This document shows positions 57,779 through 64,000 of a DNA stretch of 64,000 nt, piece by piece (positions within the stretch are counted from its first letter, which is position 1; the number at the start of each line of letters is the position of its first letter). Below the pieces are notes generated by a model. The model made no database searches. It saw nothing but the letters and a program-made list of their open reading frames with translations, and was not told where the DNA came from. The stretch spans positions 3,560,001 through 3,624,000 of the forward strand of contig NZ_CP119968.1 of the NCBI RefSeq assembly GCF_032163395.1. Reading direction: 5' to 3'. This DNA comes from Gloeocapsopsis dulcis. Its GTDB lineage: Bacteria > Cyanobacteriota > Cyanobacteriia > Cyanobacteriales > Chroococcidiopsidaceae. The position numbers and the translations under genes are program-made.

Positions 57779-59401
57779 CTAAACTATTTTCTGACGCGAA
57801 CCACCTATATAGGTATTAAGGAATTGAATAATTTTGTATGCTAACTGATTAAAAAAATGCTCAGTTAATGTATCTTCTCCGCCCCAAATAGGGATTTTTT
57901 CTCCAAGTTGGGTAAAAGTATCATAAACAATAAATTGCGCGATTTTACCACGCTTACCAGCCGTTGAGTAAACAAGTTGACACGGATAAGCAACAGTACC
58001 AACGAAGGGAATTAAGCCAACTAGGAAAGCAATCCACGGTATTTCTTGCCCTGTAGTAATGGCTTGAATACATTTATAACCTGTGTAAATCGATCTAAAA
58101 ATAGGTCCATCGACGACAAACAAAAGTCCAAAGCCTACTTCATCAATGATACCGATCGCATAAAGTAAGGGCAGCACAATAAACTCTAATGATTGAATGA
58201 TTATTTTGAGTGCTACATGAATACTAAAGTCAACCAAGTAACCACTCCCGTGTTCTTGATCTAAACGCAATCGCAAAAATTCAGCTTCTTCAGGAATTAA
58301 TTGGGTTCGATCTTCCCAGTCGTCAATGCGATCTCTAATCAAATCTCTTGTAAACTGCAATCGATAACGTTGCAAAATTAGTATCTTCCAAACCCGCACG
58401 AAGAAAGTTCGGTATTGAATTTTTTTTAATTTGTCGATGATTTTAAGAGGCAACTCAACTACAAACCGTAAGATTTTCTGCCAAGCTCTTACTAATTCTC
58501 GTAAGTACCATCGGAAAATATGACTAGAATACCATTCGGATTGTTGCTGATTAATTTTACCTTTTTTAAGTTGGTACTGAATACTCCGTTGAACTCGATT
58601 GAGAGATTTCCATTTACTTTGATGTTGTTCTAAATATTGAACATCTGTTGCGATCGCATCCCTTTTATCTTTACCTAACTTCTCTGTTATTTCTGTGTTA
58701 TATTTCTCTAGATATTTTTTTAAAGTCTCAACATCTACATCATCAAATAAAGGTTGCCCATGCTTAATCGACATGGGAATATAATATGAAAAAAGCTTTA
58801 AGATATTTAATGGCGCAAGTGCAGGAACACCTGATTCTAAATCAATCCAAGCATAGTAATAATTGAATTTACCGTTTGTATCATTATGTTCTACATTTGT
58901 TAGTAAAAAGTTATTTAACGCAACTGGATTTCCCTTTCCTGCTTGCCAAACCAAACCATCAAATCCTGCTTCAATTAATTTTTTTTGCAGGGGCAGCATT
59001 ATTTGATGAACTAAATCAGGCAATTCTCGTTTTCGTAGTCGAGTAAACGGCTGACATAGTGAAACACCTCTACCGTCAACGAATTCTGTATCAATTTGAT
59101 AAGCTTTTTGCTCTTGATTCCAATCAGTGGCGATCGCATCTGCGACTTTCAGTTGTGAATTGAACCAATACTCAACTAAAACACCTAAAATCTTTCTCCG
59201 GTAGTACGCACACTGAATAATATCTTCATCCCAAATATAAGGGTTGGGCGCTCCTAAAAAAATATAGTGAACTAACTTAGTTAGCTTGTCACCTGCAAAT
59301 ATCTTTCTAGCAATGCTTTCATCCTGATTCTCAATTAAAAAGACTTGTCCCGATCTTCCTGCACCAAGAAATTGGTTTTCTGTTGTTCCTACCTCTCTCA
59401 T
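57779..59401 (-). CDS. Kinase-like membrane protein of unknown function
   Basis: This 540-residue protein has an N-terminal kinase-like fold: Gly loop FLGAGRSGQVFLI (G13, G15, G18) and Lys33 in SIARKIFAG. It has no HRD loop, but GKGNPVALNNFLL (N158, N163, N164) is followed by YYYAWIDLESGVPA, where D187-E189 would replace DFG. Residues 240-380 are basic helices (KILRFVVELPLKIIDKLKKI). Residues about 395-480 hold three to four membrane segments (FSIHVALKIIIQSLEFIVLP, WIAFLVGLIPFVGTV), and the tail is soluble. The loop order resembles UbiB/RIO-like atypical kinases. It stands alone. Phosphotransfer is inferred only; a pseudokinase is possible. Confidence 0.6.
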   Translation of the reverse strand: MREVGTTENQFLGAGRSGQVFLIENQDESIARKIFAGDKLTKLVHYIFLGAPNPYIWDEDIIQCAYYRRKILGVLVEYWFNSQLKVADAIATDWNQEQKAYQIDTEFVDGRGVSLCQPFTRLRKRELPDLVHQIMLPLQKKLIEAGFDGLVWQAGKGNPVALNNFLLTNVEHNDTNGKFNYYYAWIDLESGVPALAPLNILKLFSYYIPMSIKHGQPLFDDVDVETLKKYLEKYNTEITEKLGKDKRDAIATDVQYLEQHQSKWKSLNRVQRSIQYQLKKGKINQQQSEWYSSHIFRWYLRELVRAWQKILRFVVELPLKIIDKLKKIQYRTFFVRVWKILILQRYRLQFTRDLIRDRIDDWEDRTQLIPEEAEFLRLRLDQEHGSGYLVDFSIHVALKIIIQSLEFIVLPLLYAIGIIDEVGFGLLFVVDGPIFRSIYTGYKCIQAITTGQEIPWIAFLVGLIPFVGTVAYPCQLVYSTAGKRGKIAQFIVYDTFTQLGEKIPIWGGEDTLTEHFFNQLAYKIIQFLNTYIGGSRQKIV

Positions 59402-59541: not shown

Positions 59542-60267
59542 CTAACCTGAGAATAATCTGCGATCTGCTACTGAAGGATCGTCGTCTGATTTCAGTTCCC
59601 TTAACAATTGTTCCAGTCGATAAGCTTGATCGAGGCGATTTTGGGTTTTAAAGATACTCAAAGCTTTTTCTAAAGATGCCAAAGCCTCATCGCGTCTCCC
59701 TTGTTGCCAAAGTGCTTGTCCTAAATGTGTTAAAGCTTCACCATATTCAGGATTAATCTTTAGTGCTTTTTGATACTCAGTTATTGCTTCTTGCCATCTC
59801 CTTTGACGTGCCAGAACCATACCGATCGCATTATAAGCTAAGGCATAGCGCGAATTATGTTCAATTGCTTGTTGATAGGCAGCGATCGCTTCTTCAGCTT
59901 TTTCTTGACGAAACAGTACGTTTCCTAGCTTGTAGTGTGCTACAGCATACTTTGGATATCTTTTAATTAACTTACGTAAAATTTCCTCAGCTTCGGTAAA
60001 TTTTTCCTGGTCGTATAAAGCATCAGCTGCTTGAATGAACCGAGTTCGTTCCTCATCTCTGTTTTCCCCCATCTGCGCGAGTTGGAATTCTTGCTGACGA
60101 GGAAATGCTGGGTGGGGCGAGATTGTATTGCGATTGTGAGGATTATTACTTATAACGTGTGTTTTGGCTAGTACTATGGGAGATGTGCTAATCACTGTTA
60201 CACAGCCTAATGCCAAGTAACCCAAAGGTTTAATCAATCCGAATTTAAGTTTACTTTTCAGGTTCAT
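59542..60267 (-). CDS. Exported tetratricopeptide repeat protein
   Basis: This 241-residue protein has a basic N-terminus and signal segment (GYLALGCVTVISTSPIVLAK). After a Gln/Asn-rich linker come four TPR units with the usual W/L/G-Y/A-F-A-P pattern: ADALYDQEKFTEAEEILRKL, AVAHYKLGNVLFRQEKAEEA, ALAYNAIGMVLARQRRWQEA and GEALTHLGQALWQQGRRDEA. It probably acts as a protein-binding scaffold in the periplasm or thylakoid lumen. The partner is unknown. It is about 140 bases from the kinase-like gene on the same strand, possibly co-transcribed. Confidence 0.9.
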   Translation of the reverse strand: MNLKSKLKFGLIKPLGYLALGCVTVISTSPIVLAKTHVISNNPHNRNTISPHPAFPRQQEFQLAQMGENRDEERTRFIQAADALYDQEKFTEAEEILRKLIKRYPKYAVAHYKLGNVLFRQEKAEEAIAAYQQAIEHNSRYALAYNAIGMVLARQRRWQEAITEYQKALKINPEYGEALTHLGQALWQQGRRDEALASLEKALSIFKTQNRLDQAYRLEQLLRELKSDDDPSVADRRLFSG

Positions 60268-62213: not shown

Positions 62214-63167
62214 TTAAGGTGTGTTGACAAGGTATTTAAATAAGTCATCAATAACTGCATTCATTGCCAAAATATCAAAAGCATACCAGTAGTCGGAATT
62301 GACGAGATAAACTCGATTTTGTTGAACTACTTTTAGTTGCTGCCATAAAGGAGATTGTTGTAACTTTTCTAAAGCTTCTTTACCCGCTTCTTCACCTCTA
62401 TATGAAAGAAACAAAACATCGCCATCAATATCAGATAAATTTTCATAAGAAATGTTGGCTTGCGTGAAGAAATCTCCGTTTTGTGCAGGTGGGCGTTGTA
62501 ATCCAATGTCATTCAACACTATACTAGTAGGATGTTGTTTTCCGTAGATGAATATTTCAAAAGTGGGATCTACAGTGGCAACGGATACCTGCATTTGCAG
62601 ACGGCGATCGCCTATTGCTTGTTTAAGTTGTTCGATTCGCTGCCAGTAGTCATTAATTAACTTTTTGCTTTCCTGTTCCTTGTCGAGGATCTTCGCAAGA
62701 TCTTCCAAAGTTTTTTGCCAAGAAGTTGGTGGAGTTGGATGATACAGTGCAACTGTGGGTGCAATATTGGATAGTTGCGTGTAGATATTCTGTAATCGAG
62801 TATTTGACAAAATTAAATCAGGTTTCAGTAACAGAAGCCTCTCTAGATTTGGCTCAAATCCCATATTTTCAACTCCATCTGCTTTACCTTGAAGGTGTTC
62901 TGGAAAAGGTTCTCCTGGAATCCATGTAGATGCAATAGGTTTTATACCTAATGCCAACGTACTACTAAAAGTCCCCCCCCACAAAGTTACAACTCGCTGA
63001 GGATTATTAGGAATGCACGTTTCACCCGCTGCGTGTTGTACAACTCGACAATTTGCTAAATCCTTAGTGCTTGTAGCACTCTGGTGGATAGGGCTACAAG
63101 CCGAGACAATTGTGCAGATTAATACTCCTAAGAGAAATAGATAGATAAAGCGAAAACAAATTCTCAT
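62214..63167 (-). CDS. Iron-siderophore ABC transporter substrate-binding lipoprotein
   Basis: This 317-residue protein has a signal peptide and lipobox (LICTIVSAC-S, mature Cys near residue 24). Mature protein: RVVTLWGGTFSSTLALGIKP, PNLERLLLLKPDLILSNTRL, and the end IDGDVLFLSYRGEEAG with VYLVNSDYWYAFDILAM. It is a class III (FecB/FhuD-type) binding protein that captures ferric siderophore in the periplasm. It follows the broken TonB receptor by 14 bases on the same strand, so they were an iron-uptake operon. No permease or ATPase is in the window. A Fur box was not recognised in the part visible. Confidence 0.9.
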   Translation of the reverse strand: MRICFRFIYLFLLGVLICTIVSACSPIHQSATSTKDLANCRVVQHAAGETCIPNNPQRVVTLWGGTFSSTLALGIKPIASTWIPGEPFPEHLQGKADGVENMGFEPNLERLLLLKPDLILSNTRLQNIYTQLSNIAPTVALYHPTPPTSWQKTLEDLAKILDKEQESKKLINDYWQRIEQLKQAIGDRRLQMQVSVATVDPTFEIFIYGKQHPTSIVLNDIGLQRPPAQNGDFFTQANISYENLSDIDGDVLFLSYRGEEAGKEALEKLQQSPLWQQLKVVQQNRVYLVNSDYWYAFDILAMNAVIDDLFKYLVNTP

Positions 63168-63181
63168 ACAGTTCTACTTAC

Positions 63182-64000
63182 TCAAAACTGCCACGAAATT
63201 GTTCCTTGAACCGTGAATGGTTCACCTCGAAAAACTCTTAGACTACTAAAAGAGCCTGAAAAATAATCCACGTCAAATATGTTCTTGAAGTTGATCTGCG
63301 CCTGAAATTGTCCCTGATTGTAAAAGATTGCAGCAGTAGTTTTAGATTCTCGGTTAGTGTGACCTGATCTTGGATTAAACCCCTAGTAAGTCTGATACAG
63401 AAGTGGAGTCAAACAATTGGACAGGTAGCGTAAGAGGTGACTGCCCATACACAGGATTGAACAGATCGAGAGGTGCGGCAGTTCCACGTGAACTTTCAGA
63501 TCTAATCAAATCTATCCTAGCTAGACTAGTTCCCAATAGCAACTGATGTTCAACCGAACCAGTTGAAAAGTTCCCAACAACATCGGTGACAAAACTATAT
63601 ACATCTTGCTCATTGAACCCATCCAAATAGTAGCAATTTAGGGTTCTATTGTCGGGAGACAAATTATCGGGAAAAACGACATTTCTCCTCGTCTCGCGAT
63701 ATGTTCTCAATCCGAAGGCACTTCGCAATGACTAGTTGTCACTGAATTGATGTTCCAATTCAGCCCTAACTCTAATTCCATTCTGATCAAAGTCACTATC
63801 GGGTTCGCCAACATAGAAGTTGCGTGCGATCTTGCCATTGGGGTTGGGGAGTATTGTGCCAACTGCTGGTTGACCAGCTGCAAATACACTATTTAAACTG
63901 ATGTATTCGCCTGAAAAAGTAAGTCTTGTGCTCTCACTAATTTTCCATCCAAGGACAGGCGCGACAGAAATGTTTTGGTTTTCTACAAAGTCAATGAAAC
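63182..64000 (-). pseudogene. TonB-dependent siderophore receptor, broken and partial
   Basis: The gene enters from the right edge: beta strands ESTRLTFSGEYISLNSVF, RAELEHQFSDN, then TAG (63734-63732) where receptors of this type have Trp (NW-SLRSAFG). The same frame runs on as SLRSAFGLRTYRETRRNVVF, ending near 63375. In another frame a C-terminus follows, GFNPRSGHTNRESKTTAAIF, INFKNIFDVDYFSG, FRGEPFTVQGTISWQF-stop 63182, so the middle is deleted. The terminal Phe is the normal BAM signal. The N-terminal plug domain is outside the window. Not functional as read. Confidence 0.85.

Follow-up and report, generated by a model that had tools for sequence, protein, structure and literature searches.

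A candidate membrane protein of scattered cyanobacteria with a predicted protein-kinase-like fold and a rewritten catalytic loop

The stretch of the Gloeocapsopsis dulcis genome analysed here (the window: 64,000 nucleotides of contig NZ_CP119968.1, positions 3,560,001 to 3,624,000) contains an open reading frame whose product has the N-terminal motifs of a protein kinase and no HRD catalytic loop, and the question it raises is whether this product is a kinase, a pseudokinase or neither. A first-pass annotation, made from the sequence alone, had proposed a membrane-anchored atypical kinase or pseudokinase. The reading that we tentatively prefer is that the protein is membrane-anchored and belongs to a new family of the protein-kinase-like fold, which would grip a Mg-nucleotide without the HRD aspartate and act on a membrane lipid or protein in a nucleotide-driven, UbiB-like manner. 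The frame translates into 540 amino acids (P0001) from an ATG start without an internal stop, and it is taken to be a genuine gene because omega is low across 13 pairs of close homologues: 0.10-0.17 over the full length, 0.06-0.12 for residues 8-240, 0.14-0.30 for 241-390 and 0.05-0.14 for 391-530.

57779..59401, minus strand: whole gene, 540 amino acids plus stop, open from ATG to stop

The AlphaFold2 model of residues 1-254 contains both kinase lobes (predicted local distance difference test, pLDDT, 82.0; predicted template modelling score, pTM, 0.82), and among the 50 structural matches listed for it the folds were kinases throughout, with UbiB among the nearest. The fold check suggested in the first-pass annotation thus came out in favour of a kinase-like N-terminal domain. 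The following elements were assigned to its first part; row counts refer to alignment A6, which has 29 rows with homologues 45-86% identical to P0001.

58682..59380, minus strand: kinase-like domain, residues 8-240 (AlphaFold2 model, structural neighbours, low omega)
59342..59371, minus strand: Gly-rich loop FLGAGRSGQV, residues 11-20 (G13, G15 and G18 in 28/28 rows; model strands 9-15 and 18-24)
59303..59305, minus strand: Lys33, the beta-3 lysine, in A-R-K (28/28 rows; model strand 29-35)
59231..59296, minus strand: helical insert between beta-3 and helix C, residues 36-57 (model helices 39-49 and 54-57)

R68 and R69, like the three glycines and Lys33, are invariant in the 28 rows that cover them. 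A candidate for the helix-C Glu that pairs with the beta-3 Lys is residue 59, where helix C begins: 23 of 28 rows have Glu there, and none of the Glu residues in 59-80 is invariant. When the protein was shuffled 200,000 times, a loose GxGxxG..AxK pattern, set after the sequence had been seen, occurred in only 14 cases; this rarity, together with the invariance of the residues in homologues, places the N-terminal motif beyond chance. It also bears on the view that the protein is not a kinase relative at all and is a helical membrane protein with a fortuitous Gly-rich loop. Such a view would agree with the lack of a credible sequence family match and with the full-length model, made first, for which Foldseek matched nothing at E 0.001 or better. 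The shuffles, the lobes and neighbours of the domain model, and an order and invariance of motifs that fit a kinase domain all stand against it, so we consider it very improbable and largely excluded.

At the sequence level the protein was not recognised by any library. Searches of P0001 against Pfam, NCBIfam, PADLOC and PHROGs gave no credible family match, and when the 29 members were compared with Pfam (E 1) and with NCBIfam and PADLOC (E 0.1), stray matches to one or two members each were obtained, none of them a kinase; the best of these, NifE in NCBIfam (E 0.0015, one of 29 members), is held to be chance. Sequence searches of the PDB with the protein and three profiles found nothing below E 0.08, and the full profile had no match at E 10. 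No RIO model in Pfam matched any of the 29 members. With hhalign, no match to the UbiB proteins of the same genome was seen, and the match to its Ser/Thr kinases covered the Gly-rich loop alone. In the literature, as judged on titles and the starts of abstracts, papers not being searchable by sequence, we found no description recognisable as this family. Since no member has a credible match in Pfam, NCBIfam or PADLOC, the earlier suggestion of a new family, placed within the protein-kinase-like fold, is supported.

The central part of the domain departs from ordinary kinases. The translation carries, where the first-pass annotation had placed them, not only G13, G15, G18 and K33 but also G157-NPVALNNFLL-L167 and W185-IDLESG with D187 and E189, and the absence of HRD that it had noted extends to the whole family: an HRD- or HGD-type aspartate was found in none of the 29 rows, whether as H[RG]Dx4N or as Dx4N[FIL][LMI].

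58907..58948, minus strand: rewritten catalytic loop WQAGKGNPVALNNF, residues 152-165 (near-invariant columns, 29 rows)
58829..58846, minus strand: DFG-equivalent IDLESG, residues 186-191 (immediately after strand 178-185)
58766..58831, minus strand: hydrophobic helix after the DLE motif, residues 191-212 (octanol hydropathy 7.98 at 191-209, 29-row mean; model helix 200-214)

Invariant in all 29 rows are D104, W152, Q153, G155, G157, P159, A161, N163, N164, F165, D187, E189, D220 and D221; D148 and K156 are each kept in 28, D148 being His in the remaining member. The annotation had asked whether Lys33, the asparagine cluster with N158 and N163, and D187 and E189 are conserved in homologues. 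This was found for all of them except N158, which is Asn in 20 rows, Ser in 4, Thr in 4 and Val in 1. The order of the metal site is kept, with N163 and N164 followed by strands 165-173 and 178-185 and then by D187; the equivalence to the Asn before beta-7 and the Asp after beta-8 comes from this order, not from superposition. When the protein is cut into 20 segments, conservation peaks at residues 146-167 (mean share of the majority residue 0.92; the next, 185-210, has 0.85), so that the catalytic-loop region has not decayed and carries a different sequence, strictly kept.

This conservation bears on two further explanations. The protein may be a catalytically dead pseudokinase in which the bound nucleotide serves as a structural switch, or as a partner scaffold at the membrane, as in HER3, JAK JH2 and ILK. 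We consider this possible, though somewhat doubtful, as a purely structural pseudokinase would be expected to let this loop drift and here the surroundings of the missing Asp are the most conserved part. Conversely, the protein may be an active phosphotransferase or another nucleotide-dependent transferase, for example one acting on a lipid or on a small molecule; D148, D104, D220/D221, E189 or the loop itself would then take the place of the HRD base. The invariant acids D104, D187, E189, D220 and D221 and the nearly invariant D148 and K156 speak for it, as does the precedent of SidJ, described in PMC6858067 as a protein of kinase-like fold that lacks kinase activity and catalyses polyglutamylation; however, no candidate acid lies five residues before an Asn and D148 is the one replaced by His, so an active transferase seems unlikely to us. 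A more specific proposal, which we rate as rather unlikely, is that the HRD base was replaced and not merely lost: the invariant W-Q-x-G-K-G-x-P-x-A-L-N-N-F loop would support nucleotide-dependent chemistry of another kind on a membrane substrate, opened by the post-DLE hydrophobic helix together with the membrane module.

Beyond the kinase-like domain the protein continues as a basic helical region and a hydrophobic module.

58244..58681, minus strand: basic helical middle, residues 241-386 (charge count; helices in the full-length model, at low to moderate confidence)
57842..58243, minus strand: hydrophobic C-terminal module, residues 387-520 (hydropathy; segments 401-419, 424-442 and 454-472; low omega over 391-530)
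57848..57886, minus strand: C-terminal motif W506-GGxDTxxEHxFN518 (G507, G508, D510, T511, E514, H515, F517 and N518 invariant in the 27 rows reaching it)

The long basic helical middle described in the first-pass annotation is present, with 28 Lys and Arg against 11 Asp and Glu in residues 241-360 and predicted helices (pLDDT 55-88 per block). Its three to four membrane segments were found in part: about three hydrophobic segments are seen in the C-terminal half (mean octanol hydropathy over the 29 rows, 9.2 for 454-472, 5.9 for 401-419 and a weaker 4.1 for 424-442), and a fourth is not sure. The hydropathy scale alone is no proof of membrane spans, since 191-209 (8.0) and 40-58 (6.1) also score highly and sit inside the kinase domain; the family ranking is 454-472, 191-209, then 40-58. 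It was noticed too that the motif at 506-518 equals the kinase motifs in conservation (D510, E514 and H515 in 27 of 27 rows), W506 being not fully invariant; the membrane module may thus hold another functional site here.

Our preferred reading joins these parts. In HER3, which lacks the HRD Asp, the nucleotide is held through the beta-3 Lys, the Asn and the DFG Asp (PMC4718504); because the same positions are invariant here, binding of a Mg-nucleotide by the family is likely by analogy. A UbiB-like, nucleotide-driven membrane protein is proposed because the hydrophobic segment 454-472 and the post-DLE stretch 191-209 lead the family hydropathy. Beyond the computed properties (modelled fold, residue conservation, loss of the HRD Asp, selection and hydrophobicity), we infer nucleotide binding, a conformational cycle, a membrane location and a substrate, which may be pictured as follows. 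The N-terminal domain, presumably cytosolic, would grip the Mg-nucleotide via the Gly-rich loop, Lys33, Asn163/Asn164, Asp187 and perhaps Glu189, and the HRD aspartate of ordinary kinases would not be used. Nucleotide binding, perhaps with slow hydrolysis or transfer via the loop at 152-165, would then change the shape of the domain in the UbiB manner. The hydrophobic helix that follows the DLE motif, together with the basic helices, would relay this change to the conserved membrane module, whose output may be an action on a membrane lipid or a membrane protein.

We also looked at how the gene is distributed. The genome samples overlap one another, and the window's own genome was counted where it fell within a sample. 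Matches to the 540-amino-acid protein were present in 11 of 60 relatives, 8 of 386 genomes of the phylum (7 of 386 by profile), 23 of 388 genomes of the order, 19 of 388 of the class (E 0.1), and 5 of 36 and 9 of 63 genomes in two further orders. Phyla beyond the window's own were reached by a single contig scan with patterns from the 540-amino-acid protein alone, which gave one confirmed homologue, in Chlorogloeopsis fritschii PCC 6912. No relative was found in four scans of viral contigs or among plasmids and phages, one plasmid scan giving four chance matches at E 1-8. The family is thus restricted, as far as could be searched, to scattered cyanobacteria, which agrees with the annotation's attribution to this phylum; 'cyanobacteria only' is not claimed. 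Cousins of the rewritten loop may perhaps occur in other phyla.

Among the 23 positive genomes of the order sample, 14 have one uninterrupted copy, one has a copy cut by a contig end, two (G003 and G006) have the gene split in two frames and six have remnants alone. Broken copies or short remnants (8 of these 23 genomes; loci L009, L010, L011, L016, L020, L053-L056, L059-L061, L098 and L099) were seen in several families, and they represent repeated decay of one gene. Lineages that have lost the gene can do without it. No genome with more than one intact copy was found among the relatives, the order, the class and the two further orders, the best three candidates per genome being considered in the order and class samples. 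In the gene tree of the 29 rows, families f1 (7 rows), f34 (4) and f42 (7) are each scattered, and grouping each together was rejected (approximately unbiased test, p-AU 7e-78, 6e-7 and 7e-31, respectively) in two-tree tests with groups defined by taxonomy but chosen after the tree had been seen, two rows having odd composition and one being half filled. Given the scattered families, the single intact copies and the many remnants, horizontal transfer with frequent loss explains the tree best; ancient duplication followed by loss (old paralogy) may do so as an alternative.

The 540-amino-acid gene has a TPR gene as its neighbour on one side and, on the other, genes for a Uma2-family protein and for a membrane protein of the Bax1-I family. 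The TPR gene is directly upstream in the window's genome and in all four intact close relatives (L031-L034). In another genome of the same genus (G001) the TPR and Uma2 neighbours are retained, and between them are mere fragments of the kinase-like gene. Other neighbours were noted at single loci or pairs of loci.

Window 59542-60267, minus strand: TPR protein, its start resembling a signal peptide (by eye); immediately upstream, same strand as the 540-amino-acid gene
L036:7899-8501 and L039:6856-7470: VTT/DedA gene, downstream of the homologue, which in L039 is a broken copy
L105:4473-5375: BrkB gene, upstream of the homologue, one locus
L035:3846-4580: PspA gene, near the homologue, one locus

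VTT/DedA (two loci), BrkB (one) and PspA (one) are membrane-related neighbours in separate lineages, in numbers too small to carry meaning. As functional partners they were rejected, together with the TPR protein, being without recurrence across lineages. In the genomic context of the homologue loci, no adjoining gene is common to the family across lineages, which is a further point against a dead pseudokinase acting through a partner. Elsewhere in the window, 63375-63998 on the minus strand is homologous to an 858-amino-acid open reading frame of a related genome (L031:10364-12940), TonB-receptor-like by reading; it has an in-frame stop followed by more stops and resembles a decaying gene, beside a binding-protein gene at 62214-63167.

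If our reading is true, it adds a kinase-fold family linked to a membrane module that the domain libraries searched fail to recognise, and a natural test case for the extent to which a kinase active site can be rewritten with the nucleotide grip kept. Kinase-fold proteins without kinase activity have been found to perform other chemistries (SidJ polyglutamylation), and membrane lipid pathways are where UbiB-type proteins act; unknown chemistry may therefore well be sought in a family whose replacement loop is invariant.

How, then, does the family compare with known systems? RIO and Bud32/PRPK kinases keep a catalytic Asp, which the family lacks. Membership of UbiB/ABC1 (PF03109) deserved serious thought, given the place of UbiB among the structural neighbours, but four sequence features led us to reject it. 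Searching the window's genome with PF03109 located 13 places at E <=0.01, the 540-amino-acid gene not among them, and the Pfam scan found the domain in none of the 29 members. The Ala-rich loop A[AS]AS is in 0 of 29 rows against three of the four UbiB proteins of the genome, the family having an invariant GAGxxG in its place; the DxHPGN catalytic loop is in 0 of 29 rows against four of four. An N-terminal KxGQ is present in all four of these UbiB proteins, whereas K.GQ occurs in six of the 29 rows and never N-terminally (P0001 and four close relatives have KHGQ at residues 213-216, and L050 has the motif at another place). According to PMC4718504, UbiB proteins carry an insert between beta-3 and helix C, a likeness to the helical insert of the family, and ADCK3 retains the HRD-type Asp; Rv3197 binds and hydrolyses ATP (PMC6208485). 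The family also differs from UbiB/ABC1 (MSMEG_1954, Rv3197, COQ8A/ADCK3) in having no HRD-type Asp, kept in ADCK3, and in its own C-terminal hydrophobic module.

The bacterial pseudokinase families ActPs1-3, GLW, CP1, DYD and DLHK, of which CP1 occurs in cyanobacteria, are also kinase-fold proteins with degraded motifs, as described in PMC12599244. ActPs2 and GLW replace the beta-3 Lys, whereas the family keeps it. Identity with GLW was rejected, as K33 is present in 28 of 28 rows where GLW has Leu or Trp, and GLW is in 0 of 29 rows, the family reading GLVWQ or close variants. CP1 is without membrane segments and is linked to COG3899, whereas the family has the hydrophobic C-terminal module and no credible Pfam domain in its 29 members, COG3899 itself not having been scanned. 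All those pseudokinases had been assigned to the Ser/Thr kinases from their sequence, an assignment that no library searched makes here, and the family differs from them in the residues lost and in architecture. HER3, the JH2 domains of JAK2/TYK2 and ILK are eukaryotic kinases with recognisable sequence, whereas the present family has a longer, rewritten loop that hardly varies.
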